64,000 nt of DNA, taken from positions 1,862,001 through 1,926,000 of the forward strand of contig CM049414.1 in the NCBI GenBank assembly GCA_026929865.2, written 5' to 3'. How positions within the stretch are numbered: position 1 is the stretch's first letter; each line of letters begins with the position of its first letter. The position numbers were made by a program, and so were the translations under genes. The stretch comes from Hyperoplus lanceolatus (Eukaryota; Chordata; Actinopteri; Uranoscopiformes; Ammodytidae). The notes beneath the pieces were generated by a model, which saw nothing but the letters and a program-made list of their open reading frames with translations, made no database searches and was not told where the DNA came from. Below, piece by piece: positions 1-41,630 of the stretch.

Positions 1-3000
1 TGGGGCAGTAGCTGTTGTAGTTGGGGCTCCTGTTGTTGTTGGGGCAGCAGTTGATGTAGTGGGGGCAGCAGTTGTTGCAGTTGGGGCAGCAATTGTTGTA
101 GTTGAGTCTGCAGTTGTAGTGGGGGCAGCAATTGTTGCTGTTGGGGCAGTAGCTGTTGTAGTTGGGGAAGCAATTTTTGTAGTTGGAGCTACAGTTATTG
201 TGGTGGGGGCAGTGGTTGTTGTAGTTGTGGCAGCATTAGTTGTAGATGGATCAGCAGTTGTTGTAGGGGCAGAAGTTGTTGAAGTTGGGGCAGCAGTTGT
301 TATAGTTGGGGCAGCAGTTGTAGTTGGGGCTGCAGTTGTCGTAGTTGGGGCAGCGTTTGTTGTAGTCGGGATAGCAGCAGTTGTAATTGGAGCTGCAGTC
401 GTTGTGGGGGCAGCAGTTGTTGTAGTTGGTGCAGCGGTTGTTGTAGTTGGGACAGCAGTTGTTGTAGTTGGGGCAGCAGTTGTTATAGGGGCCGTAGTTG
501 TAGTTGGGGCTGCAGATGAAGTAGTTGGGGCAGCGGTTGTAGTTGGAGCAGCAGTTGTTGTAGTTGGAGCAGCGGTAGTTGTGGGGGCAGCAGTTGTAGT
601 TGGAGCAGCAGTTGTAATAGTTGGAGCAGCGGTAGTTGGGGGGGCAGACGTTGTAGTTGTTGAGTTTGCAGCTGTTATTGGGGCAGCAGTTGTAGTTGGG
701 GCTGCAGTAGTTGTAGATGGAGCAGTGGTTGTCGTTGTAGGGGCATCAGTTGTTCTAGTTGGGGCTGCAGTAGTTGTAGTTGAAGCTGTTGTTGTTGTTC
801 GGGCCGTGGTTGTTGTAGTGGTGGCAGCAGTTGTTGCTTTCGGGGCAGTAGTTGTTGTACTTGTAGCTGCAGGTGTTGTGGGGGCAGCAGTTGTTGTAGT
901 TGAAGCTGCAGTTGTTGTTTTTGGGGCCGTGCGTGTTGTAGTTGGGGCTGCAGTTGATGTTGTGGGGGCAGTTGTTGTAGTTAGAGCTGCAGCGATTGTT
1001 GTGGAGGCAGTGGTTGTTGTAGTTGTTGCAGCAGTTCTTGTAGTAGAAGCTGCAGTTGTTTTAGTTGGGGCTGGAGTTGTAGTTTGGGCAACGGTTGTTG
1101 TGGTGGCAGCAGTTGTTGTAGTTTGGGTAGCAGCTGTTAATGTCGGGCCAGTAGTTGTTGTAATTGTCCCAGCAGTTGTTGTTGGTGTAGCAGTTGTTGT
1201 AGTTGAAACTGCAGATGTTGCAGTGTGGGCAGCAGTTGTTGTAGTCGGAGCTGCAGTAGTTGTAGTTGGAGCTGCAATAGTTGGAGTTGGAGCTGCAGTT
1301 TTTGTTGTGGAGGCAGCAGTTGTTGTAGTTGGGGCAGCAGTTGTTGATGTGGGTGCAGTAGTGATTGTAGTCGGGGTAGCAGTTGTTGTAGCAGGAGCTG
1401 CAGTTGTTATAGTTGGAGATGCAGTTGTTGTGGGGGCAGCAGTTGTTGAAGTTGTTGTAGCAGTTGTTGTGGGGGCTGCGGTTGTTGAAGTTGGAACTGC
1501 AGTTGTTGTGGGGGCTGCGGTTGTTGTAGTTGGTGTAGAGGTTGCTGTAGATGGGGCAGCAGTTGTTGTTGTGGGAGCAGTAGTTGTTGTAGTTGGGGCT
1601 GCAGATGTTGTAGATGGAGCAGTGGTTGTCGTTGTAGGGGCATCAGTTGTTGTAGTTGGGGCTGCAGTAGTTGTAGTTGAAGCTGTTGTTGTTGTTCGGG
1701 CCGTGGTTGTTGTAGTGGTGGCAGCAGGTGTTGCTGTTGGGGCAGTAGTTGTTGTTGTTGGGCCCGTGCTTGTTGTAGTTGGGGCTACAGTTGATGTTGT
1801 GGGGGCAGTTGTTGTAGATAAAACTGTAGCTGTTGTAGTTTGGGAAGCAATTTTTGTAGTTGGAGCTACAGTTATTGTGGTGGGGGCAGTGGTTGTTGTA
1901 ATTGTGGCAGCAGTAGTTGTAGATGGAGCAGCAGTTGTTGCAGGGGCAGAAGTTGTTGAAGTTGGGGCATCAGTTGTTATAGTTGGGGCAGCAGTTGTAG
2001 TTGGGGCTGCAGTTGTCGTAGTTGGGGCAGCGTTTGTTGTAGTCGGGATAGCAGTAGTTGTAATTGGAGCTGCAGTCGTTGTGGGGGCAGCAGTTGTTGT
2101 AGTTGGTGCAGCGGTTGTTGTAGTTGGGGCAGCAGTTGTTGTAGTTGGGGCAGCAGTTGTTGTAATTGGGGTAGCAGTTGTTGTAATTGGGGCCGTAGTT
2201 GTAGTTGGGGCTGCAGTTGTAGCAGTTGGGTCAGCAGTAGTTGTGGAGGCAGCAGTTGTAGTTGGAGCAGCAGTTGTTGTAGTTGGAGCAGCGGTAGTTG
2301 TGGAGGCAGCAGTTGTAGTTGGAGCAGCAGTTGTAATAGTTGGAGCAGCGGTAGTTGGGGGGGCAGACGTTGTAGTAGTTGAGTTTGCAGCTGTTATTGG
2401 GGCTGCAGTAGTTGTAGATGGAGCAGTGGTTGTCGTTGAAGGGTCATCAGTTGTTCTAGTTGGGGCTGCAGTAGTTGTAGTTGAAGCTGTTTTTGTTGTT
2501 CGGGCCATGGTTGTTGTAGTGGTGGCTGCAGTTGTTGCTGTCGGGGCAGTAGTTGTTGTACTTGGAGCTGCAGGTGTTGTGGGGACAGCAGTTGATGTAG
2601 TTGAAGCTACAGTTGTTGTTTTTGGGGCCGTGCGTGTTGTAGTTGGAGCTGCAGTTGATGTCAAGGGGGCAGTTGTTGTAGTTAGAGCTGCAGCTATTGT
2701 TGTGGGGACAGTGGTTGTTGTAGTTGTTGCAGCAGTTCCTGTAGTAGGAGCTGCAGTTGCTTTAGTTGGGGCTGGAGTTGTAGTTTGGGCAACGGTTGTT
2801 GTGTTGGCAGCAGTTGTTGTAGTTTGGGCAGCAGTTGTTAATGTCGAGCCAGTAGTTGTTGTAGTTGTCCCAGCAGTTGGGGTTGTTGCTGTCATGGTTG
2901 GAGCAGCTGATGTTGTAGTTGAAACTGCAGATGTTGCAGTGTGGGCAGCAGTTGTTGTTGTAGTTGGAGCTGCAGTAGTTGTAGTTGGAGCTGCAGTTTT

Positions 3001-24000: not shown

Positions 24001-27000
24001 GTTAGGGCATCAGTTGTTGAAGTTGGAGCTGCGGTTGTTGTCGTTGGGGCAACAGTTATCGTTGTTGGTGCTGCAGTTGATGTTGAGGCTGCAGTTGATG
24101 TTGTGGGGGCTGCAGTTGTAGTAGGAGGAGCAGTTGTTGTAGTTGGGGCTTGAGTTGTCGTAGTTGGGGCAACGGTTGTTGCTGTAGTTGCAGCAGTAGT
24201 GATTGTAGTTGGTGCAGCAGGTTGTAGTTGGAGCTGCAGTTGTTGTGTGGGCAATAGTAGTTGTAGTTGGAGCTGGAGTTGTTGTTGTCGGGCCAGTAGT
24301 TGTTGAAATTTGAGCTGCAGTTGTTGTGGGCTGCAGGTTGTTTTGGTCGCTGCGGTTGTTTTAGTTGGAGCTGCAGTTGTTGTTGTTGGTGGGCGGTTGT
24401 TGTAGTTGCGGCAGCAGTTCTTGAAATTGCTGCTGGAGTTTGTTGTAGTTAGACTGTAGTTGTTTTGGGGGCAGCACTTGTTGTTGGGGCTGCAGTTGTT
24501 GTTGGTTCAGCAGTACTTGTAGTGGGTCCTGCAGTTGTTGTGGTGGCAGCAGTTGTGGTCGATGGAGCTGCAGTTGTTGTAGTTGGAGCAGCAGTTGTTG
24601 TTGTTGTGTGCAGCCCGGTTGTTGTAGATGGGACGCGGTTGTTGTTGGTGCAGCAGTTCTTGTAGTTGGGGCATCAGTTGTTTTTGTGGGGGCTGCAGTT
24701 GTAGTTGTAGCTGCAATTTTTGTGGGGGCAGCAGTTGTTGTGATTGCAGCAATTGTTGTTGCAGCAGTATTTGTAGTTAGGGCGTAGTTGTTGATTGGAG
24801 CTGCGGTTGTGGTGGGGCAACAGTTTTCGTTGTTGGCGCTGCAGTTGTTGTTGAGGCTGCAGTTGATGTTGTGGGGGCTGTAGTTGTAGTAACAGCAGCA
24901 GTTGTTGTAGTTGTGGCTTGGTTGGTCTCGTAGTTGAGGCAGCAGTTTGTTGCTCTCATTGCAGCAGTGATTGTAGTTGGAATGACGGTTGTAGTTGGAG
25001 CTGCAGTTGTTGTGTGGGCAGTAGTAGTTGTAGTTGGAGCTGGAGTTGTTGTTGTGGGCCAGTAGTTGTTGTAGTTGGGGCTGCAGTTGTTTGATGTGGG
25101 CAGTTCATTGTGGTTGGAGCTGCACTTGTTGTTGTCGGGAACAGTGGTTGTTGTTGTAGGTGCGCCAGCAGCTGTTGTTTGGTATGATTGTTGTAGAGTG
25201 GGCTGCAGTTGATGCTCTGGGACAGCAGTGGTAGTAGTTGGGCCTGTAGTTGCTTTAGTGGGGGTGCGGTTGTTGTTGTAGTGGCAGCAGTTGTTGTAGT
25301 TGGGGCTACAGTTGTTGTGGGGGTAGCGGTTGTTGTAGTTATGCACTTAACAGTTAGAGCTGTTCAGACGGGTGCAGTTATGGATGTTGATTAGAAGTTG
25401 TTGTTGGGGCTACACTTGTTGTTGTGGTTGAAGTGACGGTTGTTGTAGTTGGGTTGCAGTTGTGGTAGTTGGAGCTGCAGTTGTTGTTGTGAAGTGTGAT
25501 TGTTGTGGTGTCACGTAACAGTTATTGTTGGTGCAGCAGTTGTCATTGTAAGTTGGAGTTGCAGTTGTGGTAGTTAAAAGCTGCAGTTGTTGTTATGAGG
25601 TAGCGGTTGTTGTAGTTATGCAGCAGTTGTTGTTCAGTGCAGCAGTTATGCGTTGTAGTTAGGGTTGCAGTTGTAAACAGCTGGAGCTGCAGTTGTTGAT
25701 ATTAGGGGTAGCGGTTGTTGTGGTTGTCACAGCAATTGTTGTTGGTGCAGCAGTTGTCGTTGTTAGGTCTGAAGTTGTTGTTGGGGCTACAGTTGTTGTT
25801 GTAGTTTAGGCGGCGGTTGTTGTCGTTGGGGAAACAGTTGTTGTGAGTAGGTGCAGCGGTTGTTGTAGTTGAGGCAGCAGTTGTTGTAGTTGGGGCATCA
25901 GTTGTTGAAGTTTGAGCTGCAGTTATTATTGTTAAGAGCAACAGTTGTTGTTGTGGTAGCTGCTGGTTGTTGAGGCTGCAGTTGTTGTAGTTGGGGCTGC
26001 CGTGTATTTTGTGGGGGCAGCAGTTGTAGTAGGAGCAGCAGTTGTTGTAGTTGGGGCTTGAGTTGTGGCTAGTTGGGGCAACGGTTGTTGTTGATGTAGT
26101 TGCAGCAGTGATTGCAGTTGGGGCGAAAAACGCGTTTGTGGCTGGAGCTGCAGTTGTTGTAGGAGCGTCTAGTAGTTGTAGTTGGAGCTGGAGTTCTTGG
26201 ATAAGTAGTTGTTGTAGTTGGGGCTGCAGTTGATATTGTCAGGGGCAGTTGTTGTGGATTACGACTGCAGTTGTTGTTGTGGGAACAGAGGTTGTTGTAG
26301 TTTCCGCGTAGCTGTTGTTGGAGCAGCAGTTGTTGTAGAGTGGGCTGCAGTTGATGTTCTCGAGACAGTCGTAGTAGTTGGGCCTGTAATTGCTTTAGTT
26401 GAGGTATGGTTGTTGTTGTAGTGGCAGCAGTTTTTGTAGTTGGGGCTACAGTTGTTGTTGTGAAGCGTGTAGAATTTGTTGTAGTTATGTAGCAGTTGTT
26501 TTGGGGGCAGCACTTGTTGTTGGGGCTGCAGTTGGTATTGTTGGTTCAGCAGTACTTGTAGTCGGTCCTGCAGTTGTTGTGGTGGCAGCAGTTGTGGTCG
26601 ATGGAGCTGCAGTTGTTGTAGTGGAGCAGCAGTTGTTGTTGTGGGCATAGCGGTTGTTGTAGATGGGGCCATGGATTGTTGTTGGTGCCTGAGTTGTTGT
26701 AGTTGGGGCATCAGTTGTTTTAGGGGCTGCAGTTGTAGTTGCAACTGCAATTTTTGTGGGGGCAGCAGTTGTTGTAGGCGCAGCAATTGTTGTTGCAGCA
26801 GTATTTTAGTTAGGGCATCAGTTGTTGAAGTTGGAGCTAGGTTGTTGCCGTTGAAGACGGCGGTTATGGATTATTTGGTGCTGGAGTTGTTGTTGAGGCT
26901 GCAGTTGATGTTGTGAGGCTGCAGTTGTAGTAGAAGGAGCAGTTGTTGTAATTGGGGCTTGGGTTGGCCATTAGTTGAGACTGCTTGTTGTTGCTATAGT

Positions 27001-30000
27001 TGCAACAGTGATTGTAGTTGGGGCAGAAGGCGGTTTGTAGTTGGAGCTGCAGTTGTTGTGTGGGCAATAGTAGTTGTAGTTGGAGCTGGAACTGTTGTTG
27101 TCGGGCCAAAAAGTTGTTGAAAGTTGAGCTGCAGTTGTTGTGGAGGCTGCAGTTGTTTTGGTCGCTGCGGTTGTTTCTGGTGGAGCTACCCAGTTGTTGT
27201 TGTTGCTGGAGCGGTTGTTGTAGTTGCGGCAGCAGTTCTTGATGCTGCTGGGTTGTTGTAGTTGGAGCTGCAGTTGTTTTGGGGGCAGCACTTGTTGTTG
27301 GGGCTGCAGTTGTTGTTGTTGGTTCAGCATTTTTAGTGGGTCCACTGCAGTTGTTGTGGTGGCAGCAGTTGTGGTCGATGGAGCTGCAGTTGTTGTAGTT
27401 GGAGCAGCAGTTGTTGTTGTTGTAAGGGCGCAGCGGTTATTTGTAGATGGGGCAGCGGTTGTTGTTGGTGCAGCAGTTGTTGTAGTTGGGGCATCAGTTG
27501 TTTTGTGGGGGCTGCAGTTGTAGTTGTGGCTGCAATTTTGTGGGGGCAGCAGTTGTTGTGGGTGCAGCAATTGTTGTTGCAGCAGTATTTGTAGTTAGGG
27601 CATCAGTTGTTGAAGTTGGAGCTCTTGGTTGTTATCGTTGGGGCAACAGTTTTAGTTGTTGGCTGCAGTTGTTGTTGAGGCTGCAGTTGATGTTGTGGGG
27701 GCTGCAGTTGTAGTAGCAGCAGCAGTTGTTGTAGTTGTGGCTTAGGTTGTCGTAGTTGGGGCAACGGTTGTTGCTATAGTTGCAGCAGTGATTGTAGTTG
27801 GGGCAGAAGCGGTTGTAGTTGGAGCTGCAGTTGTTGTGTGGGCAGTAGTAGTTGTAGTTGGAGCTGGAGTTGTTGTTGTCGGGCCAGTAGTTGTTGTAGT
27901 TGGGGCTGCAGTTGATTTCGTGTGGGCAGTTGTTGTAGTTGGAGCTGCACTTGTTGTTGTGGAACAGTGGTTGTTGTTGTGGGTACGCAGCAGCTGTTGT
28001 TTGAGCAGCAGTTGTTGTGAAGTGGGCTGCAGTTGATGCTCTCGGGACGGCAGTCGTAGTAGTTGGGCCTGTAGTTGCTTTAGTGGGGGCAGTTTGATAT
28101 TGGCAACAGTTGTTGTAGTTGGGGCTACAGTTTTGTAAGGGTAGCGGTTGTTGCTGTTTGTCAGCAACAGTTGTTGTTGGTGCAGCAGTTGTCGTTGGAT
28201 CTGAAGTTGTTGTTGGGGCTACATGTTGTTGTAGTTTGAAGCGGTTGTTGTGGTGGGGTTGCAGTTATAAGTAGTTAAAGCTGCAGCTGTTGTTAATGGG
28301 GGTAACGGTTGTTGTAGTTATGTAGTTGTTATTGGTGCAGCAGTTGTCGTTGTTGAATTCTGAAGTTGTTGTTGGGGCTGGTTGTTGTTGCAGTTTGGGC
28401 TGCGGATGTTGTCGTTAGGAAAGCAATTGTTATAGTGGCGCAGCGATTTGTTGTAGTTGGGGGCAGCAGTTGTAGTAGTTGGGGCATCAGTTGTTTGGGA
28501 TTTGAGCTGCAGTTGTTGTCGTTGGGGCAACAGTTGTTGTTGTTGAGCGCTACAGTTGTTCTTGAGGCTGCATTTGTTGTAGTTACAGGGGCTGCAGTTG
28601 ATTTTGCGGGGGCAGCAGTTGTAGTAGGAGCAGCAGTTGTTGTGGTTGGGCTTGAGTTGTCGTAGTTGGGGCAACGGTTGTTGTTGTAGTTGTAGCAGTG
28701 ATTGTAGTTGGGGCAGCAGCGTTTGTAGCTGGAGCTGCAGTTGTTGTGAGGGCAGTAGTAGTTGTAGTTGGAGCTGGAGTTCTTGTCGGGTCAGTAAGTT
28801 GTTGCTTAGTTGGGACTGCAGTTGATGTTGTGGGGGCAGTTGTTCTTGTAGTTGGAGCTGCAGTTGTTGTTGTGGGAACAGCGGTTGTTGTAGTTGCCGC
28901 AGCAGCTGTTGTAGAGTGGGCTGCAGTTGATGTTCTCGGGACAGCAGTTGTAGTAGTTGGGCCTGTAGTTGCTGTAGTTGGGGCAACGGTTGTTGTAGTG
29001 GCAAAAGTTGTTGTAGTTGGGGTTGCAGTTGTCGTAGTTGGAGCTGCAGTTGTTGTTGGTGCAGCAGTTGTCGTTGTTGGGTCTGAAGTTGTTGTTAGGG
29101 CTACACTTGTTGTTGTAGTTTGGGCGGCGGTTGTTGTAGTTGGGGTTGCAGTTGTCGTAGTTGGAGCTGCAGTTGTTGTTGTGGGGGTAGCGGTTGTTGT
29201 AGTTGTCCAGTTATTGTTGGTGCAGCAGTTGTCGTTGTAGTTGGGGTTGCAGTTGTCGTAGCTGGAGCTGCATTTGTTTTTGTGGGGGTAGCGGTTGTTG
29301 TAGTTGTCGCAGCAGTTGTTGTTGGTGCAGCAGTTGTCGTTGTTGGGTCTGAAGTTGTTGTTCGGGCTACAGTTGTTGTTGTAGTTTGGGCGGCGGTTGT
29401 TGTCGTTAGGGAAGCAGTTGTTGTAGTGGGTGCAGCGGTTGTTGTAGTTGAGGCAGCAGTTGTTGTATTTGGGGCATCAGTTGTTGAAGGTTGTGCTGCA
29501 GTTGTTGTTGATGGGGCAACAGTTGTTGTTGTTGGTGCTGCAGTTGCTGTTGAGGCTGCAGTTGTTGTAGTTGGGGGTGCAGTTGATTTTGTGGGGGCAG
29601 CAGTTGTAGTAGGAGCAGCAGTTGTTGTTGTAGTTGGGGCTTGAGTTGTCGTAGTTGGGGCAACGGTTGTTGTAGTTGCAGCAGTGATTGTAGTTGGGGC
29701 AGCAGTTTATGGTGGAGCTGCAGTTGTTGTGAGGGCAGTAGTAGTTGTAGTTGGAGCTGGAGTTGTTTGTCGGACGGCGTAGTTGTTTAACAGTTAGGAC
29801 TGCAGTTGATGTCGTGGGGGCAGTTGTTGTAGTTGGAGCTGCAGTTGTTGTTGTAGAACAGCAGTTTTGTAGTTACGCAGCAGCTGTTGTAGTTGGAGCT
29901 GCAGTTGTTTTGGGGCAGCACTTGTTGTTGGGGCTGCAGTTGTTGTTGTTGGGGGCTTAGGGCTGACATAGAATGGAGCAGCAGTTGTTGTAGTTCGGGC

Positions 30001-33000
30001 ATCGTTGTTTTTGTGGTGCTGCTGCAGTTGTAGTTGTAGCTGCAATTTTTGTGGGGTAGCAGTTGTTGTGGGCGCTGCAGTTGTTGTATGTTGGGCAGCA
30101 GTTGTTTTTGGTGCAGTAGTTGTCGTTGTTGGTGCTGCAGTTGTTGTGGGGCCTACAGTTGTCGTTGTAGTTGGGGCGGGGGTTGTTGTAGTTAAGGCAG
30201 CAGTTCTTGGTGCAGCAGTATTTGTAGTTAGGGCATCAGTTGTTGATGTTGGAGCTGCAGTTGTTGTAGTTTGGGCAGCAGTTGTTGTTGGTGCAGTAGT
30301 TGTCGTTGTTGGTGCTGCAGTTGTTGTGGGTCCTACAGTTGTGGTTGTAGTTGGGGCGGGGTTTGTTGTAGTTGAGGCAGCATTTGTTGTTGTTGCAGCA
30401 GTTGGGGCATCAGTTGTTGTAATTGGAGCTGCAGTGGTTGTCGTTGGGGCAACAGTAGTCGTTCTTGGGGCTGCATTTGTTGTCATCGTTGGGGCTGTAG
30501 TAGTTGTTGAAGTTGTAGTTGGAGCTGCAGTTGTTGTGGGGGCAGTAGTACTTTGCCGGATTGTCTCAGTAGTTGTTTGTGCAGCAGTTGTTGTAGTTGG
30601 GGTTGCAGATGTAGTAGTTGGGGCTGGAGTTGTTGTAGTTGGGGTACCGGTTGTTGTAGTTGGAGCTGCAGTTGTTGTAGTTGGAGCTGCAGATTTTGTA
30701 ATTGAGGAGCCTAGTTGTTGTAATTGGATCTAGAGTTGTTGTTGTTGTTGGGGCAGTGGTTCTTGTAGTTTGGGCAGCGGTTGTTGTAGTTGTTGCAGCA
30801 GATGTTGTAGTTGAACCGTTTGTTGTTGTAGTTGGGGCATCCAGCTGTTGTAGTTATCGCAGCAGATGTTGTAGTTGGGGCAGCAGTTGTTGTAGTTGGA
30901 GCTGAAGTTGTTGTAGTTGGTACAGCAGTTGTTATAGTTGGCGCAGCGGTTGTTGTTGTGGGGGGAGTGTCTGTTGAGTTGATTTCACTTTCAAAGTTGA
31001 TCACGTTTGAAGTTGCATTTCTCAAAGAATCTTGAATCTCAATAGAAGTAGGAGCAGATGTGTTAACCTCAATGTCCAGTATATTCTCAACTGACCCACT
31101 TCTGCAGAATGAGAAGTAATAAATGCTGTATGAAATAAAAGGTTTTGGCAAATAAAGTAAAATTTTCACATGAAAAGCCTTAAAATATTGCCTGAATTCC
31201 ACACTTCAAAGGACCTGTATCCACGGACATTTTAAGGAAGAAAGGTCCAAGCTGCAAAAACAAAAAGTAAGTTGTAATTTTCTTCTTACTTTAAATGTTA
31301 AATTTAAGGCATTTTTATAAAGCATATTACGTAGACTAGCTAATACATTCTGATATGAAAATGCAAGTTGCTAGTTCTGTTTGAATATTTCATGTGTTTT
31401 TTTTGGTGTGTGAGAAAAAACTGAGGCCAGTAGACACACACACAGGAGGAAACTAAGTGAAGACTTGCCATCACACCATACAACGGCTAGCTGTGTTTGA
31501 ATTCTTAATGTTACAACCCTTGATTCAACAACGTTTGGGACGGTGTGTAAAACATCAATTAAGAGAAGGAAAATTATGTTTTCTAATCCTGTGTGACATA
31601 ATCAATTAGAATACAGTACACATATAGGTATTACATGCAAGACTAAACCTCCCTTATTCACGTCTTCTTTTCATTATCAGTTCCTGGATTTAAGCAGGAG
31701 CAGTAACTTCAATGCCAAGTGTCTTTTCGGTCCCTAATTCATACAACATAATTACAATGTGAATTGCGTTTCATACAGTTTTACCATAACATTCAGTTTG
31801 GTGGCTTGAAATATCTAATAAAATAATTCAGTAGATTGACCAGCAAATTGTTAAATAAGGTTGAGACTTACATGAGTATGCATCTTTGAAACTCGATTCT
31901 TAAAAGCTGTGGATGATGAATCATTTTAAGTCCATTGTGAATCTGTAAGTGAACAGATTTGAAGGTCTGCTCGTATTATGGTTATCGTTGGGACAACTGC
32001 TGTTGTTGGTGCAGCGGTTGTAGTTTGAGGAAAGCAGTTGTTGTAGTGGGAGCAGCTGTTTTTGTAGTTGGGGCAGCAGTTGTTGTTGGTGCAGCAGTTG
32101 TTGAAGTTTGGGCATCAGTTGTTGTAGTTGGAGCTGCTGCGGTTGTTGTAGAGGAGCAGTTGTTGTCGGGACAGTGGTTGATGTTGTTTTAGCTGCAGTT
32201 GTAATTGGAGCAGCAGTTGTTTTGTGGGGGCTGCTGTAGTTTGGGCTGCAGTTGTTGTGGTTGGAGCTATAGTTGTTGTGGGGGCAGCAGTTTGTTGTTG
32301 TGGGAGCAGCGGTTGCTGTAGTAGAGATGCAGTTGTTGTACCTGGAGCTGCAGTTGTTGTTGATGGGGCTGCCATTTTTTGTAGCTGGAGCTGCAGTTGT
32401 TAATGAGCGCAGCGGTTGTTGTAGTTTGGGGCAGCAGTTGTTTTCGTTGGGGAAGCTGCTGTGGTTGTTGTCATTGTTGGGGCTACAGTTGTTGTTTTGG
32501 CTGCAGTTGCAGTTGTTGTTGTTGTTGCAGCAGTTGTTGTACTTGGGGCATCAGTTGTTTTGTTGTTGGGAAAGCAGTTGATGTAGTTGGAGCTGCAGAT
32601 GTTTTGTGAGGGCTGCTGTTGTTGTTTGGGCTGCAATTGTTGTAGTTGTAGCTGTAGTTGTTGTGGCCGCAGCGGTTGTTATAGTTGAGCAGCGTTGTTG
32701 ATGGTGCAGCGGTTGTCGTTGTTCGGGCTGCAGTTGTTGTTGTAGGTGAGGCGGTGGTTGTTGTCGTTGGGGAAGCAGTTGTTGTTGGTGCAGCAGTTGT
32801 TGTAGTTGGGGCATCAGTTGTTGTAGTTGGAGCTGCAGTTGTTGTCGTTGGGGCAGCAGTTGTAATTCTTTGGGCTGCAGTTGTTGTCATTGTTGGGGCT
32901 GTAGTTGTTGTTGTAGTTTGGGCGGTTGTTGTAGTTGGGGCAGGAGTTCTTGTTGTTGTGGTCACTGCGGTTGTTTTAGTCCGGGCAGTTTGTTGTTGGG

Positions 33001-36000
33001 GAAGCAGTTGATGTAGTTGGAGCTGCAGATGTTTTTGTGGGGGGCTGCTGTTGTTGTTTGGGCTGCAATTGTTGCATAGTTGTGGCTGTAGTTGTTGTGG
33101 CCGCAGCGGTTGTTATAGTTGAGGCAGCAGTTGTTGATGGTGCAGCGGTTGTCGTTGTTCGGGCTGCAGTTGTTGTTGTAGTTGGGCGGTGGTTGTTGTC
33201 GTTGGGGAAGCAGTTACTGTTGGTGCAGCAGTTGTAGTTCAGGCTGCAGTTGTTGTAGTTGGAGCAGTTGTTTTTTGGGGGCTGCTGTTGTTGTTTGGGC
33301 TGTAGTTGTAGCTGCAGTTGTTGTGGGAGCAGCAGTTGTTGTTGTGGCCATAGCGGTTGTTGTAGTTGGAGATACAGTTGTTGTTGTTGGTGCAACAGTT
33401 GGCGTTGTTGTGGCTTCAGTTGTTGTAGTTGAGGTGGCGGTTGTTGTCGTTGGGGCGGCAGTTGTTGTTGTGGGCACAGTGGTTGTAGTAGTTGAAGCAG
33501 TTTCTGTTGGAGCAGCAGTTGTTGTAGTTGGGGTATCAGTTGTTGTAGTTAGAGTTGCAGTTTTGTCATTGGGGCAGTAGTTGTAATTGTTGGGGCTGCA
33601 TTTGTTGTTGTTGTTGGGGCGGCGGTTGCTGTAGTTGGGGCAGGGATTTGTTGTTGTTGGGGCAGCAGTTGTCGTTGTTGGGGCTGCAGTTGTGGTTGTT
33701 GGAGCTGCAGTTGTTGTAGTTGGAGGCGACAGTTGTTGTTGTGGACTGCGGTTGTAGTTGGAACTGCACAGTTGTATATGTGTCCAGGAGTTGTTGTGGG
33801 AGCAGCAGTTGATGTAGTTGGAGCAGCAGTTGTTTTTGTGGGGGATGCAGTTGTTGTAGTTGCAGCTGCAGTTTTAGCTCCGGAGCTGCAGTTGTTGTAG
33901 TTTGGAGCAGCAGCTGTTCTTGTATGGGCTGTTGTTTTAGCTGCAGTTGTTTTGGGGGCAGCAGTTGTTGTTGTTGTTGTGGCGCAGTGGTTGTTGTATT
34001 GGGGCCAGCAGTTGTTGTTGTTGCAGCAGTTGTTATAGTTGTGGAAGCAGTTGTTTTTGTGGGGGCAGCGGTTGATGCAGTTGGAGCTGCAGTTGTTGTA
34101 GTTGGAGCAGAAGTTGTGTTTTTGTGGGGGCTGCAGTTGTTGTAGTTGTGGGGGCAGCAGTTGCTGTTGTTGTGGGCACAGTGGTTGTACTAGTTGAAGC
34201 AGTTGTTGTTGGAGCAGTAGTTGATGTAGTTGGGGCCTCAGTTGTTGCAGTTGGAGCTTCAGTTTTGTCATTGGAGACAGTAGTTGTAGTTGTTGGGGCT
34301 GCATTTTTGTTGTTGTTGGGGCGGCAGTTGTTGTAGTTGGGGCAGGATTTGTTGTTGTTGGGGCAGCAGTTGCTGTTGTTTGTGCAGAGGATTGTTGTAG
34401 TGGGGGTAGCAGTTGTTGTAGTTGGGGCTGCAGTTGTTGTGGGTGCAGCAGTTGGTGTTGACAGCGCAGCGGTTGTTGTAGTTGGGCGCGGTTGTTGTCG
34501 TTAGGGCAAAAGTTGTTGTAGTTGGGGCATCAGTTGTTGTAGTTGGAGCAGCAGTTGTTGTTGATGGGGCAGCAGTTGTTGTGGGTGCAGCAGTTGGTGT
34601 TGACAGCGCAGCGGTTGTTGTAGTTGGGGTGGCGGTTGTTGTCGTTAGGGCAAAGTTGTTGTAGTTGGGGCATCAGTTGTTGTAGTTGTTGGAGCTGCAG
34701 TTGTTGCTCTTGATTGACAGTTGTAGTTGTTGGAGCTGCAGTTGTTGTTGTTGTAGTTGGGCGGCAGTTGTTGTCGTTGGGGCAGTGGTTGTTGTAGTTG
34801 AGGCAGCAGTTGTTGTAATTGGCGCTGCAGTTGTTGCATTGGGTCAGCAGTTGTAATTGTTGGGGCTGCAGTTGTTGTTGTTGTAGCTGGGGCAGTTATT
34901 GTAGTTGGAGCCACAGTTGTTGTAGTGTGGCCTGCAGCTGTTGTCGTTGGTGTTAGCAGTTGTTGTAGTTTGTGCAGTGGTTGTTGTAGTTGAAGCTACA
35001 GTTGTTGTGCGGGCAACAGTTGTGGTGGGGGCAGCAGATGTTGTGGGCCCAGCAGTTGTTGTAGTTGGGCCAGCAGTTGTTGTTGTTAATGGCCTAGCGG
35101 TTTTGTAGTTGAGGCAGCAGTTGTTTTTGTGGGGGCCGCGGTTGATGCAGTTGGGGCTGCAGTTGTTGTGGATTGGAGCAGAAGTTGTTCTTGTGGGGGC
35201 TGCAGTTGTTGTAGTTGTGGGGGCAGCAGTTGTTGTTTTGGGCGCAGCAGTTGTTATGTGTGGCAACAGTTGTCGTTGTTGTGGCTTCAGTTGTTGTGGT
35301 TGAGGTGGCAGTTGTCGTTGGGGCAGCAGTTGTTGTTGTTATGGGCTTTGCAGTGGTTGACACTAGTGGAAGCAGTTGTTGTTGGGGCTGCAGTTGTTGT
35401 TGTTGTAGCTGGGGGCGGCAGTTTGTTGTCGTTGGGGCAGGAGTTGTTGTTGGTGCAGTGTTTGTTGTAGTTGAGGCAGCAGTTGTTGTAGTGCAGCTGA
35501 TTGTTGTCGTTGGTGTAGCAGTTGCTGTAGTTTGTGCAGCGGTTATTGTAGTTAAGGCAACAGCTGTTATAGTTGGAGTGGCAGTTGTTGTGGTTGTGGG
35601 GGCAGCAGTTGTTGTTTTGGGTTTTGTGGTTGTTGCAGTGGTTGTTGTGGCAACAGTTGTCGTTGTTGTGGCTTCAGTTGTTGTAGTTGAGGTGGCGGTT
35701 GTTGTCGTTGGGGCAGTTGTTGTTGTTGTGGGCGCAGTGGTTGTACTAGTTGAAGCAGTTGTTGCTGGTGCAGCAGTTGTTGTAGTTGGGGCATCAGTTG
35801 CTGTAGTTGGAACTGCAGTTGTTGCCGTTGGGTCAGCAGTTGTAGTTTTTGGGGCTGCAGTTGTTGTTGTTGTTGTTGGAGCGGTTGTTGTTGTTGTTGT
35901 TAGGGCAGGAGTTGTTGTTGTTAGTGCAGCAGTGGTTATTGTGGTTGGGGCAACTGTTGTTGTTGGATTAGTTGTTGTAGTTGGAGCTGCAGCTGTTGTA

Positions 36001-39000
36001 GTGTGTGCAGTTTGTTGTCTTTGGTGTAGCAGTTGTTGTTTGTGCTGCAGCTGTTGTAGTGTATTCCTGTAGTTGTTGTCTTTGGTGTAGCAGGTTGTTG
36101 TTGGTGCAGCAGTTGTTGTTGTTGGGACTGCTGTGGACATGGTTGCAGGATTCAGGCTACAGTTGTTGTAGTTTGGGGGCAGCAGTTGTTGTTGGGGCAT
36201 CAGTTGTAGTTGTTGGAGCTGGAGTTGTTGTTGTGAGGGCTGATGTTGTTGGGGAAGAGGTTGTCATTGTGGGGGCAGCAGTTGTTGTGGGTGCAGCGGT
36301 TGTTGTATTTGGGGCAGCTGTTGTGGTTTTTGGGGCTGCAGTTGTTGTAGTTCGGGCAGCGGTTGTTGTCGTTAGGGTAGGAGTTCTTGTTGTTGGTGCA
36401 GCGGTTATTGTAGTTGAGGCAGCAGTTGTTGTAGTTGTATCCACAATTGTTGTAGTTGAAGTTGCAGCTGTTGTAGTGTGGCCTGCATTTGTTGTCGTTG
36501 GTGTAGCAGTTGTTTTTGCAGCGGTTGTTTTAGTTGGAGCTGCAATTGTTGTTGTGGGGGCAGCAGTTGTTGAAGTTTGTGCAGCAGAAGTTGTTGGGGC
36601 AGCAGTTGTTGTAGTTGGGGCATCAGTTATTTTAGTCGGAGCTGCAGTTATTGTATCTGGGGCTACAGTTGATGTTGTTGGGTCTGCTGTTGTTGTTGGG
36701 GCAGAGGTTGCCATTGTGGGAGCAGCAGTTATTATTAGCCCATCGGTTGTTGTAGTTGGGCCAGCAGTTGTTGTTGGTGCAGCAGCAGTTGTTGTTGTGA
36801 GGGCTGATGTTGTTGTTGGGGCAGAGGTTGTCATTGTGGGGGCAGCAGTTGTTATGAGCCCATCGTTTGTTGTAGTTGGGGCAGCAGTTGTTGTTGGTGC
36901 AGCAGTTGTTGTAGTTGGGGCATCAGTTGTAGTTGTTGGAGCTACAGTTGTTGTTGTGAGGGCTGATGTCATTGTGGGGGCAGCATTTGTTGTGGGAGCA
37001 GTGGTTGTTGTAGTTGGGGCAGCAGTTGTTCTTGGTGCAGCAGTTGTAGTCGTTGGGGCTGCAGTTGTTTTAGTTGAGGCAGCAGTTGTTGTAGCTGTAG
37101 CTGTAGCTGCAGCTGTTGCCGTTTGGGCCGCAGTTGTTTTAGTTGAGGCAGCAGTTTTTGTAATGTGGCCTACAGTTGTTGTCGTTGGTGCATCAGTTGT
37201 TGTAGTTGGAGCTGCAGTTGTTGTGTGGGCAGCAGTTTGTGTGGGTGCAGCGGTTGTTGTAGTGGGGTCTGCTGCTCTTGTCGGGGCTCTGGTTGTTGTT
37301 TTGGGGGCAACAGTTGTTGTGGGTGCAGCGGTTGTTGTAGTGGGGGCTGCTGTTTTTTTTTGGGCTGTGGTCGTTCTAGTTAGAGCTGAGGTTGTTGTTG
37401 TGGGCGCAGCAGTTGTTGTAGTTAGGGCATCAGATGTTGAAGTTGGAGCTACAGTTTTTGTGGTCGGGGCTACAGTTGTTTTTGTTGATTCTGCTGTTGT
37501 TTTTGGGGCTGCGGTTGTTGTAGTTGCAGCTGCATTTGGTGTTGTTGTGGACACAGCAGTTGTTGTAGTTGGGGCAGCACTTGTTGTAGTTGGGGTTATG
37601 GTTGTTGTAGTTGGAGCTGCAGCTGTTGTTGTGGGTGCAACGGTTGTTGTAGTTGGAGCAGCAGTTGTTTTTGTGGGCGCAGTGAATGATGTAGTTGGGG
37701 CAGCAGTTGTTGTAATTAGGGCATCAGTTGATGTATTTGGAGCTGCAGTTGTTGTAGTGGGGTCTGATGTTGTTGGGGCTGCAGTTGTTGTAGTTTGAGA
37801 TGCAGTTGTTTTTGTGGGGGCAGTGGTTGTTGTTGTTGGAACTGCAGTTGTGGGGGCAGCGGTTGTTGTAGTTGGAACTGCAGTTTTTTGGGGGGCTGCA
37901 GTTGTTGTAGTTGGAGCTGTGGTTGTTGTTGTGGGCGCAGCAGTTGTTGTAGTTAGGGCATCAGATGTTGAAGTTGGAGCTGCAGTTGTTGTAGTCGGGG
38001 CCACAGTTGTTTTTGTTGAGTCTGCTGTTGTTGGGGCTGCGGTTGTTGTAGTTGGAGCTGCATTTGTTGTTGTTGTGGGGGCAGCAGTTGTTGTTGTGGA
38101 CGCAGCAGTTATTGTAGTTGGGGCAGCACTTGTTGTAGTTGGGGCTACGGTTGTTGTAGTTGGAGCTGCAGCTTTTGTTGTTGTGGCGACTGCGGTTGTT
38201 GTTGGGGCTGTGGTTGTTGTAGTTGGAGCTGCAGTTGTTGTAGTGGGGTCTGATGTTGTTGTTGTTGGGGCTGCAGTTGTTGTAGTTTGAGCTGCAGTTG
38301 TTTTTTGGGGGGCAGTGGTTGTTGTTGTTGGGCCAACAGTTGTTGTCAATGCAGCAGTTGTGGTAGTTGGGACATCAGTGGTTGTAGTTAGAGCTGCAGT
38401 TGTTCTAGTGGGGGCTAGAGTTGTTGTTGTTGTGGGGACTGCTGTTGTTGTTGGAGCTGCGGTTGTTGTAGATGGAGCTGTAGTTGTTGTTGTGGGGGCA
38501 ACAGTTGTTGTTGTGGACGCAGCGGTTGTTGTAGTTGGGGCAGCAGTTGTTTTTCTGAGGACTGCTGTTGTTGTTGGGGCTGCAGTTGTTTTAGTTTGAG
38601 CTGCAGTTATTTTTGTTGGGGCAGTGGTTGTTGTTGATTGGGCTACAGTTGTTGTTATAGTTCGGGCGGCGGTTGTTGTCGTCGGGTCAGGAGAAGTTGT
38701 TTTGGTGGCTGGTGTTGTTGTTGGTGCATTATTTGCTGTAGTTAGGGCATCAGTTGATGTATTTGGAGCTGCAGTTGTTGTAGTGGGGTCTGATGTTGTG
38801 GTTGTTGGGGCTGAAGTTGTTGTAGTTTGAGCTGCAGTTGTTTTTTGGGGGGCAGTGGTTGTTGTTGTTATAGCTGCAGTTGTGGGGGCAGCGGTTGTTG
38901 TAGTTGGAACTGCAGTTGTTGTGGGCGCAGCGGTTGTTGTAGTTGGGGCAGCAGTTGTTGTTGATTGGGCTAGAGTTGTTGTTATAGTTCGGGCGGCGGT

Positions 39001-40514
39001 TGTTGTCGTCGGGTCAGGAGAAGTTGTTTTGGTGGCTGGTGATGTAGTTGGGACAGCAGTTGTTGCAGATGGAGCTGCAGTTGTTGTTGTGGATGCAGCG
39101 GTTGTTGTAGTTGGGACATCAGTTGTTTTTCTGAGGACTGCTGCTGTTGTTGGGGCTGCAGTTGTTTTAGTTTGAGCTGCAGTTATTTTTGTTGGGGCAG
39201 TGGTTGTTGTTGATTGGGCTAGAGTTGTTGTTATAGTTCGGGCGGCGGTTGTTGTCGTCGGTTCAGGAGAAGTTGTTTTGGTGGCTGGTGATGTAGTTGG
39301 GACAGCAGTTGTTGTAGATGGAGCTGCAGTTGTTGTTGTGATAGCAACAGTTGTTGTAGTTGGGACATCAGTTGTTGTAGTTGGAGCTGCAGTTTTTCTA
39401 GTGAGGGCTAGAGTTGTTTTTGTTGAGTCTGCTGTTGTTGTTGGAGCTGTGGTTGTTGTAGATGGAGCTGTAGTTGTTGTTGTGGGGGCAGCAGTTGTTG
39501 TAATTGTTGCAGCGGTTGTTGTAGTTGGGGCAGCAGTTCTTGTTGATTGGGCTAGAGTTGTTGTTATAGTTTGGGCGGCGGTTGTTGTCGTCGGGTCAGG
39601 AGAAGTTTTTTCGGTGGCTGGTGATGTAGTTGGGACAGCAGTTGTTGTAGATGGAGCTGCAGTTGTTGTTGTGATAGCAACAGTTGTTGTAGTTGGGACA
39701 TCAGTTGTTGTAGTTGGAGCTGCAGTTTTTCTAGTGGGAGCTAGAGTTGTTTTTGTTGAGTCTACTGTTGTTATTGGAGCTGTGGTTGTTGTAGATGGAG
39801 CTGTAGTTGTTGTTGTGGGGGCAGCAGTTGTTGTAGTTGTTGCAGCGGTTGTTGTAGTCGGGGCAGCAGTTGATGTTGATGCAGCAGTTGTTGTAGTTGG
39901 AGCTGCGGTTGTTGTAGTTGGGGCAGCAGTTGTTGTAGTTGGAGCTGTAGTTGTTGTAGTTTGAGCTGCAGTTCTTGTAGTTGGGCCAGCAGTTGTTGTT
40001 GATGCAGCAGCTGTTGTATCTGGAGCTGTAGTTGTTGTAGTGGGGGCTACAGTTAATGTTGATGTGGGGGCTGCTGTTCTTGTTGTGGGGGCAGTGGTTG
40101 TTGTTCTAGGGGCAGCAGTTGTCGTTGTTGGTGCATACTTTAGTGTAGTTGTTGTTTGGTCTGCAGTTAATTTTGTTGCGGTTGTTGTTATTGGGGCAAC
40201 TATTGTTGTGGGCGCAGTAGTTGTGGGGGCAGCGGTTGTCTTCATTGGGGCAACTGTTGTTCGGGCAACAAAAAGGCCTTCAATTATAAAATACAGCAAC
40301 CATATTTGATGTTCCGCTATTACAAGATTCAGCTAGATCAAGATTCATTGGATAAGAAATACCGGTGCAAATGATTACAAATAAATTATTGTCACATACT
40401 TCCCTACAGCTGTTCCATAATTTTGTTTTCACACACATTAAAAGTTATTGGTTTCATATAACTTAGCTTACCTGTTAGAATCAGGAAACATGATAGGATG
40501 CTTCTCACACCCAT
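1..40514 (-). CDS. Giant secreted or membrane mucin with alternating Thr-rich (PTS) arrays and SEA domains; 3' end outside window
   Basis: Predicted role: an extracellular, heavily O-glycosylated gel-forming or surface mucin. The minus strand shows a signal-peptide exon (40473-40514), a PTS array from 40277 to about 32000, a SEA-like module (about 31.0-32.0 kb), a second PTS array (about 16.6-31.0 kb), a second SEA-like module (about 15.6-16.6 kb) and a third PTS array running off the left edge. The repeat unit is mostly TTTTAAP, so Thr is over half of the residues, with almost no Cys or aromatics. If read through, it exceeds 12,000 residues, the size class of MUC16. No von Willebrand, cystine-knot or transmembrane part lies in the window, so the subclass is open. 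Many indels break the frame between 5 and 31 kb. Splicing is inferred from junction sequence only; two tandem genes or a pseudogene are alternatives, although no second signal-peptide exon is seen. Confidence 0.72.
168..3541 (-). repeat. Higher-order repeat of about 1.69 kb within PTS3
   Basis: The marker aagcaatttttgtagttgga occurs at 168, 1845 and 3541, and each copy is followed by the same ordered variants (acagttattgtggtgg, a run of gcagcgtttgttgtagtcgg, then gtagatggagcagtggttgt). A second marker, tagatggagcagtgg, occurs at 714, 1611, 2414 and 3307, alternating about 897 and 803 bp apart. The unit is therefore a dimer of two subunits of about 0.8-0.9 kb. Copies differ by few substitutions, which implies recent unequal exchange. 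Confidence 0.7.
12161..14745 (-). repeat. Higher-order repeat of about 0.85 kb within PTS3
   Basis: The block ggtgctggagttgttgcagt followed by a Lys-containing segment (KTTAA in the Thr frame) starts at 12161, 12998, 13843 and 14699. A second shared marker, the A/T-rich ctgtgatttatttatagatg-like segment, lies near 13190 and 14888, 1.70 kb apart. This again gives a dimer of about 0.85-kb units. The 13843 copy has lost a base in the marker (gctgagttgg). Confidence 0.6.
15560..16575 (-). CDS. SEA-like domain module, second copy in gene order (three exon pieces)
   Basis: Minus-strand pieces: a PTS2 exon ending PTTAVVPTITIIRRV, FKSVHDRFTMDLNDS, AFKNRVKDAHT with donor gtgagt (exon end 16466); a 63-bp exon 15845-15783 reading LDLSSLKMSGDARSFEVVEF; and an exon starting at 15693 after ttctgcag that reads RSGSVDNILDIEV, then SLRNATSNVTNF and EINST into PTS3. 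The GSV site preceded by FEVVEFR fits the SEA cleavage-loop region. Canonical autoproteolytic SEA domains have GSVVV; here the following residues are Asp-Asn, so cleavage is doubtful. Four N-glycosylation sequons are visible. The phase across the 620-bp intron does not match by one base; a one-base error in the run at GAGTC (about 16486) would explain it. The 89-bp intron has clean gt and ag borders. Confidence 0.68.
16575..30970 (-). repeat. PTS array 2: central Thr/Ala/Pro mucin array
   Basis: About 14.4 kb of the same 18-24-bp coding units between the two SEA modules. Reading the minus strand gives TTTTAAP, TTTAAP and TTTTTAAP units with recurring signature peptides such as TAGPTTSTAEP, TSAAPKTTAA and APTSTTDAP. 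Signature blocks recur about every 0.77-0.91 kb at 20791, 21650, 22416, 23323, 24220 and 24985, and again near 27809, which defines a higher-order repeat. The Thr frame shifts many times to the Asn/Cys/Tyr or Gln/Leu readings through single-base and two-base gaps. Relatively long in-frame parts remain (for example 23091-24254 and 29794-30486 contain extended Thr-rich runs). Around 16.9-19.7 kb and 25.3-26.3 kb the repeats are more diverged and contain extra spacer-like bases. Confidence 0.62.
30970..31985 (-). CDS. SEA-like domain module, first copy in gene order (three exon pieces)
   Basis: Non-repetitive island between PTS1 and PTS2. Exon pieces on the minus strand: the end of the PTS1 exon down to 31872 (donor gtaagt), 31251-31192, and 31101 downwards. 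The last piece reads RSGSVENILDIEVNTSAP and then SLRNATSNVINFESEINST before the Thr array resumes. The order (FTMDL, AFKNRV, LDLSSLK, then GSV followed by a hydrophobic strand) matches a SEA domain, an extracellular module of mucins such as MUC1 and MUC16. Relative to the second copy, this one has net-compensating indels in the first piece, a middle exon of 60 instead of 63 bp with an internal frame break, and a GC rather than GT donor at 31191-31190. It may therefore be decayed or poorly polished. Three N-glycosylation sequons (NTS, NAT, NST) are visible. Confidence 0.62.
31985..40277 (-). repeat. PTS array 1: N-terminal Thr/Ala/Pro mucin array (exon 2)
   Basis: Coding array following the signal peptide. 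From 40277 down to 36157 the Thr-rich frame is uninterrupted (about 1,370 codons), so this is one very large exon. Units are variants of TTTTAAP, with Asp, Ser, Lys, Arg, Val and Asn substitutions. A local higher-order unit recurs around 38663, 38990, 39239 and 39571 (spacing about 250-330 bp). It encodes TSPDPTTTTAARTITTTLAQ-like blocks, with Arg-Thr-Ile and Ala-Gln-Ser markers seen nowhere else in the window. From 36.1 down to 32.0 kb the repeats are more degenerate and the frame breaks several times. The array ends in PTTAVVPTITII, which leads directly into the SEA module. No cysteines occur in the Thr frame, as expected for a rigid O-glycosylated rod. Confidence 0.7.
40473..40514 (-). CDS. 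Mucin exon 1: start codon and first part of signal peptide
   Basis: On the minus strand an ATG (complement of 40512-40514) opens a short exon that ends in a strong donor (AACAG then gtaagc, 40472 downwards). Joined in phase 1 to an acceptor ending in gaag just above 40277, it reads MGVRSILSCFLILTGLFVA and then RTTVAP and the Thr-rich array. This is a textbook signal peptide: basic n-region, hydrophobic core, small residues at the probable cleavage site after VA. The intron is 195 bp (40278-40472). The join restores a Gly codon and runs straight into the long Thr-rich frame, which is the main reason for choosing this start. The single G near 40500 decides the frame and should be checked against reads. 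Transcript data are not available, and an upstream UTR exon may exist. Confidence 0.68.
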
Positions 40515-41573: not shown

Positions 41574-41630
41574 TAGTTTAAATCCAAAACCCATTTAGAA
41601 AACAATAATTTAAAACTAGAATATTCTTCA

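Follow-up and report, generated by a model that had tools for sequence, protein, structure and literature searches.

A giant mucin gene punctuated by SEA modules, with a putative GPI-anchor signal and relatives, in the genome of Hyperoplus lanceolatus

The window, which is the whole stretch of 64,000 nucleotides analysed here (C20:1862001-1926000; a C20 position equals 1862000 plus the window position), carries a mucin locus on its minus strand. The locus comprises a signal-peptide exon, three threonine-rich arrays of about 38 kb in total and two SEA modules of three exons each. With 160 kb of sequence to the left of the window included, the whole gene extends over about 43.7 kb (C20:1858841-1902514, minus strand). 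Its modules follow each other in the order signal peptide, PTS1, SEA1, PTS2, SEA2, PTS3, SEA3, short PTS, SEA4 and a signal resembling those for GPI attachment. They lie in this order in the DNA, their splice sites and phases fit, the arrangement recurs in paralogs and the tail is conserved. It is probable that the modules constitute one giant cell-surface mucin gene. The gene would be transcribed, and its product would be O-glycosylated on thousands of Thr and Ser residues and held at the outer leaflet by a GPI anchor. The best reading of the data is a real, expanded family of giant mucins that are punctuated by SEA modules and bear a putative GPI anchor. The most surprising feature is the GPI-like end, which is common to the family and is sited just outside the window. 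All genome searches refer to the 806.7-Mb assembly.

Organization of the gene within the window

The following parts of the gene are located in the window. Positions are window positions, and a slash marks an exon boundary.

40472..40514, minus strand: exon 1, with the ATG at 40514, the signal peptide MGVRSILSCFLILTG and a phase-1 donor GTAAGC
31970..40277, minus strand: PTS array 1 (exon 2), with a clean frame between about 40200 and about 36300 and a broken frame between about 36300 and 31970
31872..about 31967, minus strand: SEA1 exon 1, the 3′ end of the PTS exon, donor CAT/GTAAGT
31192..31251, minus strand: SEA1 exon 2, acceptor TTTTTGCAG/, donor reading GC, not GT, frame broken inside
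about 30970..31101, minus strand: SEA1 exon 3, fused to PTS array 2, reading FR/SGSVENILDIEV...
16560..30970, minus strand: PTS array 2, with frame breaks along its whole length, 173 shift events in 14386 nt
16466..about 16557, minus strand: SEA2 exon 1, donor CAT/GTGAGT
15783..15845, minus strand: SEA2 exon 2 (LGPFFLKN... SFEVVEFR), donor AG/GTAATA in phase 2, frame broken inside
about 15560..15693, minus strand: SEA2 exon 3, fused to PTS array 3, reading SGSVDNILDIEVANTSAPSSIEIQDSLRNATSNVTNFDNEINST
1..15560 and on past the window edge to about -677, minus strand: PTS array 3, often broken from about 15000 to about 5000, clean below about 3300

The signal-peptide exon of the preliminary description was borne out on the minus strand. 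The acceptor AAG/G at 40277 takes up the phase-1 donor of this exon, and the junction MGVRSILSCFLILTG-GLFVA-RTTVAP is in frame. As judged by eye, the start of exon 2, GLFVA, completes the hydrophobic core of the signal peptide. The three arrays of TTTTAAP-type units, likewise described before, were recovered at their total of about 38 kb on the minus strand by both tandem-repeat and strand-skew analysis. Tandem Repeats Finder reports positions 1-40135 as a single field of 21- and 42-nt units. The strand skew is strong up to 40 kb with dips at 15-17 and 31-32 kb, and the SEA-like exons are found in these dips when the minus strand is read in three frames. In two clean stretches the arrays consist of 48-49% T, 21-24% A, 10-11% P and 4-5% S. 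By composition and tandem repeats, they thus represent the long, repetitive, Pro/Thr/Ser-rich domain that defines a mucin (PTS protein).

The two SEA modules have the same orientation, as had been proposed, and each consists of three exons. In SEA1 and SEA2 the small second exon ends in EFR with a phase-2 donor, and the third exon, SGSV..., opens the next PTS exon. SEA exon 3, PTS and SEA exon 1 form one exon, which is followed by the small SEA exon 2. Because this unit repeats in phase, its duplication can enlarge the gene, which explains how giant mucins can lengthen. Aligned through exons and introns, SEA1 and SEA2 are identical at 859 of 983 bases, differ at 124 and show 24 gap runs. A SEA profile search of the joined exon pieces had been suggested as a check, with the absence of any hit as the refuting outcome. 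Both modules gave matches, but both remained under the curated Pfam cut-off (PF01390, 26.4 bits): SEA2 scored 25.6 bits (E 1.4e-5) and SEA1 15.3 bits (E 0.022), with exons joined by hand and X placed at frame breaks. The low scores are likely due to the frame breaks inside the exons, since spliced paralog modules reach 30.0, 34.6 and 38.4 bits.

No VWD, C8 or cystine-knot exon of the gel-forming mucins was noticed among the exons read in the gene, and the search for RNA families and tRNAs found none within the window. Just upstream of the mucin signal exon, at window positions 41577-42503 (plus strand) with further open frames to 44599, a LINE-like reverse transcriptase is located (Pfam RVT_1, E 2.3e-16). 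A 31-nt unit is present three times at 43165-43257, and its reverse complement twice at 43951-44011, 0.7 kb further on.

The C-terminal end of the gene

Extension of the sequence to the left, as advised in the preliminary description, led to the C-terminus. The gene ends 3.2 kb left of the window, and its last exon resembles a GPI signal rather than a transmembrane segment with a cytoplasmic tail. The features beyond the window edge, in window coordinates, are as follows.

about -678 to -1380, minus strand: SEA3, spliced, Pfam SEA 31.4 bits, above cut-off, without a GS site
about -1620 to -1765, minus strand: short PTS between SEA3 and SEA4
about -1766 to -2970, minus strand: SEA4, Pfam SEA 30.1 bits, above cut-off
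-3074 to -3159, minus strand: last exon, separated from SEA4 by a 103-nt intron whose splice sites and phase fit, with the stop codon at C20:1858841

The last exon reads ...SGGVCHTISLVTASCLGLLSWLLSSQS up to the stop codon, its final residues being ISSGGVCHTISLVTASCLGLLSWLLSSQS, and encodes no cytoplasmic tail. Its hydrophobic maximum ends 5 residues ahead of the stop. The helix and cytoplasmic tail that follow the last SEA domain in transmembrane mucins of the SEA type are thus not seen in this exon. GPI-anchored proteins possess an N-terminal signal peptide and, at the C-terminus, an omega site of small residues, a spacer and a hydrophobic end. By inspection and hydropathy, a putative signal peptide and candidate C-terminal features of this type are seen here. 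The gene end, as predicted from its sequence, suggests a lipid anchor instead of the membrane-crossing tail of known membrane mucins.

Tails were surveyed at 10 of the 14 loci obtained in one paralog search and at the additional locus L024. Eight of the 10 terminal-type loci (L030-L036 and L042) have related tails with a consensus of about SGVSHKISLVTASCLGLLSWLLSSQ. L024 ends in SSGACFIRLDLIHLLLGLLIFTLI before its stop codon, which brings the count to 9 of 11 loci. At L037 and L038 a tail was sought and none was found; in L037 another repeat exon follows. The hydropathy maximum over 15 residues lies between 1.84 and 2.34 and ends 0-6 residues from the C-terminus in the eight tails measured, a set from which L035 was left out because its tail equals that of L034.

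A second modular mucin-like locus occupies C20:1720.3-1741.8 kb (plus strand; about -141700 to -120200 in window coordinates). Here, cysteine-rich modules punctuate the PTS exons, which are flanked by module halves of the types CQTC... and FGCTS...CC-GNFCN. The joined module matches Pfam UPAR_LY6 with 16.9 bits at E 0.009, which does not reach the cut-off of 24.8. The last PTS exon of this neighbour is open for 1223 residues and ends in TASGACCIRLGLIHLLLGLLILNLF before the stop codon. Its tail resembles that of the SEA mucin L024 at 18 of 24 residues by eye and at 10 of 13 in BLASTP. Ly6/uPAR proteins are classically GPI-anchored. The likeness of the tails therefore favours a GPI anchor for L024 and, less directly, for the window gene.

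Relatives in the same genome

Searches of the genome with SEA exon 3 peptides returned at least 10, at least 23 and at least 22 matches in overlapping sets. The SEA3 exon gave at least 33 matches, many of them weak (E up to 0.21) and partly overlapping the other sets. The relatives are located on C23 (13.19-13.31, 15.55 and 21.65-21.78 Mb), C10 (13.08-13.10 Mb), C2 (34.62 Mb) and C20. On C23, frames of 1003, 1191 and 1774 residues are open from SEA exon 3 into the PTS. The earlier proposal that SEA modules punctuate giant PTS exons is supported by this same layout in the C23 paralogs. The paralog SEA modules score 30.0, 34.6, 38.4, 36.7 and 36.8 bits against Pfam SEA, all above 26.4. When the genome was searched directly with the Pfam SEA model, the single match was L001 (C4:5648115-5648231), at 29.5 bits and over the cut-off. 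A chance or purely low-complexity origin of the locus was rejected, since SEA modules, splice sites and module order all recur in the paralogs.

The relatives differ in their repeats and in the spacing of their modules. L033 and L037 (C23:13.250-13.255 Mb) combine the same type of SEA module with surrounding repeats of the AGAST type, not the TTTTAAP type, which suggests that repeat motif and SEA module vary independently. L044 (C23:21673001-21675600) consists of tandem units of 765-768 bp, each made up of a three-exon SEA3-type module plus a short linker (about 20 residues). The unit copies are 97-100% alike, except for one stretch at 81%.

In a tree of 13 modules, SEA1 and SEA2 are sisters (95/95) and are joined by C23:13284 (100/99). 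SEA4 is paired with the terminal module of C23:21783 (81/97, not starred). Two placements are exceptional: the terminal module of L024 groups with the internal modules C23:13288 and C23:13299, and the internal module C23:13250 groups with terminal ones. The exon-3 identity is 88% between SEA1 and SEA2 and 63-67% between these two and C23:13284. For SEA4 it is 69-83% to four terminal modules and 45% to the terminal module of L024. The tree and the identities imply that internal units multiplied within genes and that most terminal modules are of one kind across loci. With a profile of six modules, five sequences were found at E up to 1. The best match of solved structure is the SEA domain of ADGRF1 (E 2.5e-6), and 1ivz, which we take to be the SEA domain of mouse MUC16, follows at E 0.033.

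Frame breaks in the arrays

On the minus strand, the best frame stays open over 1-3300 and about 36300-40300 and changes frequently in between. Shifts were decoded with a codon model that had been trained on the clean stretches, with the SEA modules left out. This yielded 302 shift events, of which 47 fall in array 1, 173 in array 2 and 82 in array 3. The product had been put at more than 12,000 residues; a figure of roughly 13,000 was obtained, but because of these events it is a nominal length, derived from a partly noisy assembly. The frame breaks themselves are absent from the preliminary description. Counted in 1-kb bins, there are no shifts in bins 0-2 and 37-39 and one each in bins -1, 3, 4 and 40. 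Bins 5-36 contain 0 to 21 shifts per kb, about ten per kb, and the two lowest (15 and 31 kb) correspond to the SEA modules that were left out.

T, A, P, S and V make up.864 and.907 of the in-frame codons in the clean parts; in the noisy parts their share is.914 (array 1),.882 (array 2) and.911 (array 3). When errors were simulated on clean sequence, indels alone at 1-2% gave shares of.883-.886, and the addition of 10% substitutions gave.817-.824. In-frame stops in these noisy parts occur at 0.25 per kb in array 1, 0.97 in array 2 and 0.10 in array 3. The simulated rates are 0.03-0.05 per kb for indels alone (1-2%) and 1.0-1.1 per kb with 10% substitutions. Array 2 thus looks like decay by its stops and like noise by its codon content. 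Under neutral decay, substitutions should outnumber indels. Error is therefore the better explanation, though not the sole one, and faulty assembly most likely accounts for the frame shifts from about 5 to 36 kb. Decoding of paralogs gave 1 event in 4970 nt for L028, 2 in 1551 for L020, 0 in 1533 for L022 and 3 in 1517 for L027. The C10 paralog L029 is also frame-noisy (82 events in 7280 nt), so some family members may be decaying. At 5570-5900 of L028 there is a homopolymer-rich stretch resembling an assembly fault, and behind it come copies of a SEA3-type module that are almost identical and spaced by about 1.08 kb.

Two other accounts of the broken frames were weighed. According to one, the locus is a decaying pseudogene of a former SEA mucin, with its middle now frame-broken. 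The 302 events over the three arrays, the broken frames of the SEA1 and SEA2 exons, the GC donor at SEA1 exon 2 and the stop rate of array 2, which matches the simulation with 10% substitutions, are what such a pseudogene would show. However, the events are mostly confined to about 5-36 kb with edges inside uniform arrays, the frames at both ends are clean over 3-4 kb, the in-frame codon content is undiminished, and no damage is seen in SEA3, SEA4, the splice sites of these two modules or the tail. Frame decoding and simulation make a pseudogene quite improbable, with the stop rate of array 2 speaking against this outcome. According to the other account, mis-assembly of tandem repeats has inflated the size of the arrays and the number of internal SEA modules, and the real gene is of far smaller size and may contain just one internal SEA. 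The noise of the middle 31 kb and the assembly oddities in L028 would fit such inflation. SEA1 and SEA2 differ, however, at 124 of 983 aligned bases, including multi-base blocks. This is far above an error rate of about 1%, and they are therefore distinct copies; several internal SEA modules are found in paralogs, too. We consider inflation of this kind as doubtful as the pseudogene. The preliminary description had correctly spotted a real and unusual mucin gene, the frame of which is most likely blurred by the assembly. The case illustrates how assembly can give giant PTS exons the appearance of pseudogenes, which they probably are not.

Putative autoproteolysis and proposed mechanism

The consensus of autoproteolytic SEA domains is a G-S[VI] cleavage motif in a loop of the FR-x-GSVVV type. 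The motif FR-x-GS[VI] was found in all 13 type-1 modules compared, including SEA1, SEA2 and SEA4, and is absent from SEA3. Cysteine was sought in the same 13 modules, and none contains it. Since FR-x-GS[VI] has the form of an autoproteolytic site, SEA1, SEA2 and SEA4 could each be cut in folding. The SEA domains of transmembrane mucins are described, in passages of two reports, as being cut during folding, held together non-covalently and unfolding under force (PMC6705488, PMC9578598).

After cutting during folding, the halves of each cleaved module would likewise be held non-covalently. From the motif in 13 of 13 modules and the lack of Cys, we infer a lipid-anchored chain whose segments are linked by several breakaway joints. 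The molecule may be pictured as a rod of sugar-coated segments of thousands of residues, coupled by SEA joints, from which outer segments could come off under shear. SEA3, which has no GS site, would act as a non-cleaving spacer. We tentatively propose, as a possibility we would rate at somewhat less than even, that these genes encode lineage-expanded, GPI-anchored giant mucins in which self-cleaving SEA modules split the O-glycosylated chain into non-covalent segments, with outer lengths being shed under shear. The relatives would range from MUC16-like SEA arrays with short linkers to modules thousands of residues apart. The Ly6/uPAR-like neighbour is punctuated likewise and has the same kind of tail, as if the genome built giant lipid-anchored mucins from interchangeable modules. 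If this is true, barrier and signalling would be uncoupled in a lipid-anchored mucin of about 13,000 residues with dispersed SEA modules, and the suggested function of SEA domains as force-sensitive couplings would become testable with several couplings per molecule.

Comparison with known mucins

The window gene might instead encode a transmembrane mucin or a counterpart of MUC16. In that case the true last exon with helix and cytoplasmic tail would have been missed, and the short hydrophobic exon would represent either an alternative end or a bare helix. Many SEA modules and giant PTS regions are akin to MUC16 in kind (PMC4046138, in part), and the units of about 767 bp with short linkers on C23 point in the same direction. 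Against this, the tail exon follows SEA4 after an intron of 103 nt with fitting splice sites, phase and stop codon, and related tails recur at 8 of 10 terminal-type loci. The MUC16 repeats described in PMC4046138 are tandem SEA domains of about 156 residues with two conserved cysteines. This pattern was not found: SEA1 and SEA2 are about 15 kb apart, Cys is present in 0 of 13 type-1 modules, and ADGRF1 is the best solved match (E 2.5e-6 versus 0.033 for 1ivz). A missed transmembrane end is therefore unlikely, and a GPI-like end is preferred. The preliminary description had contrasted the locus with MUC16, where SEA repeats cluster near the membrane. The contrast holds for SEA1 and SEA2, which are separated by PTS exons, but SEA3 and SEA4 are situated directly before the C-terminus, so SEA modules also cluster near the membrane in the window gene.

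Among the papers listed in a literature search, assessed by title and start of abstract and mostly outside subscription journals, none dealt with a GPI-anchored SEA mucin of fish or with PTS exons punctuated by SEA modules. For Fugu, the passages of PMC1552070 report only Muc13 and a MUC1-like transmembrane mucin, and human MUC16 is called there the sole mucin known with multiple SEA domains. The label "uncharacterized threonine-rich GPI-anchored glycoprotein PJ4664.02-like" is used in fish annotation and occurs once in a sparid transcriptome table (PMC10864312, in part); the likeness is by name only. The label suggests that Thr-rich proteins of such appearance are already present in automatic annotation.

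The SEA domain of ADGRF1 is the closest solved one by profile, the FR-x-GS stretch included, whereas ADGRF1 itself is a receptor and not a mucin. With MUC1, MUC3, MUC12, MUC13 and MUC17, the window gene shares a PTS region followed by a SEA domain beside the membrane anchor. These mucins, however, have a transmembrane helix and a cytoplasmic tail and typically one SEA domain, as described in part of PMC6705488. In sea bream Muc13 and I-Muc, the SEA domain is located beside the helix, and the tails are within 26-52 aa (PMC3680472, in part). The giant PTS exon of human MUC3B is given as 39,267 bp in a passage of PMC9578598. MUC16 is described in part of PMC4046138 as a 12,068-residue N-terminal region followed by up to 60 SEA repeats of 156 aa and a membrane-spanning C-terminus. 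It resembles the window gene in combining a giant PTS region with many SEA domains in one membrane-tethered mucin, and a C23 relative of the window gene has tandem SEA units with short linkers. In contrast to MUC16, the SEA modules of the window gene are also found thousands of residues apart between PTS exons, and its end looks like that of a GPI-anchored protein.
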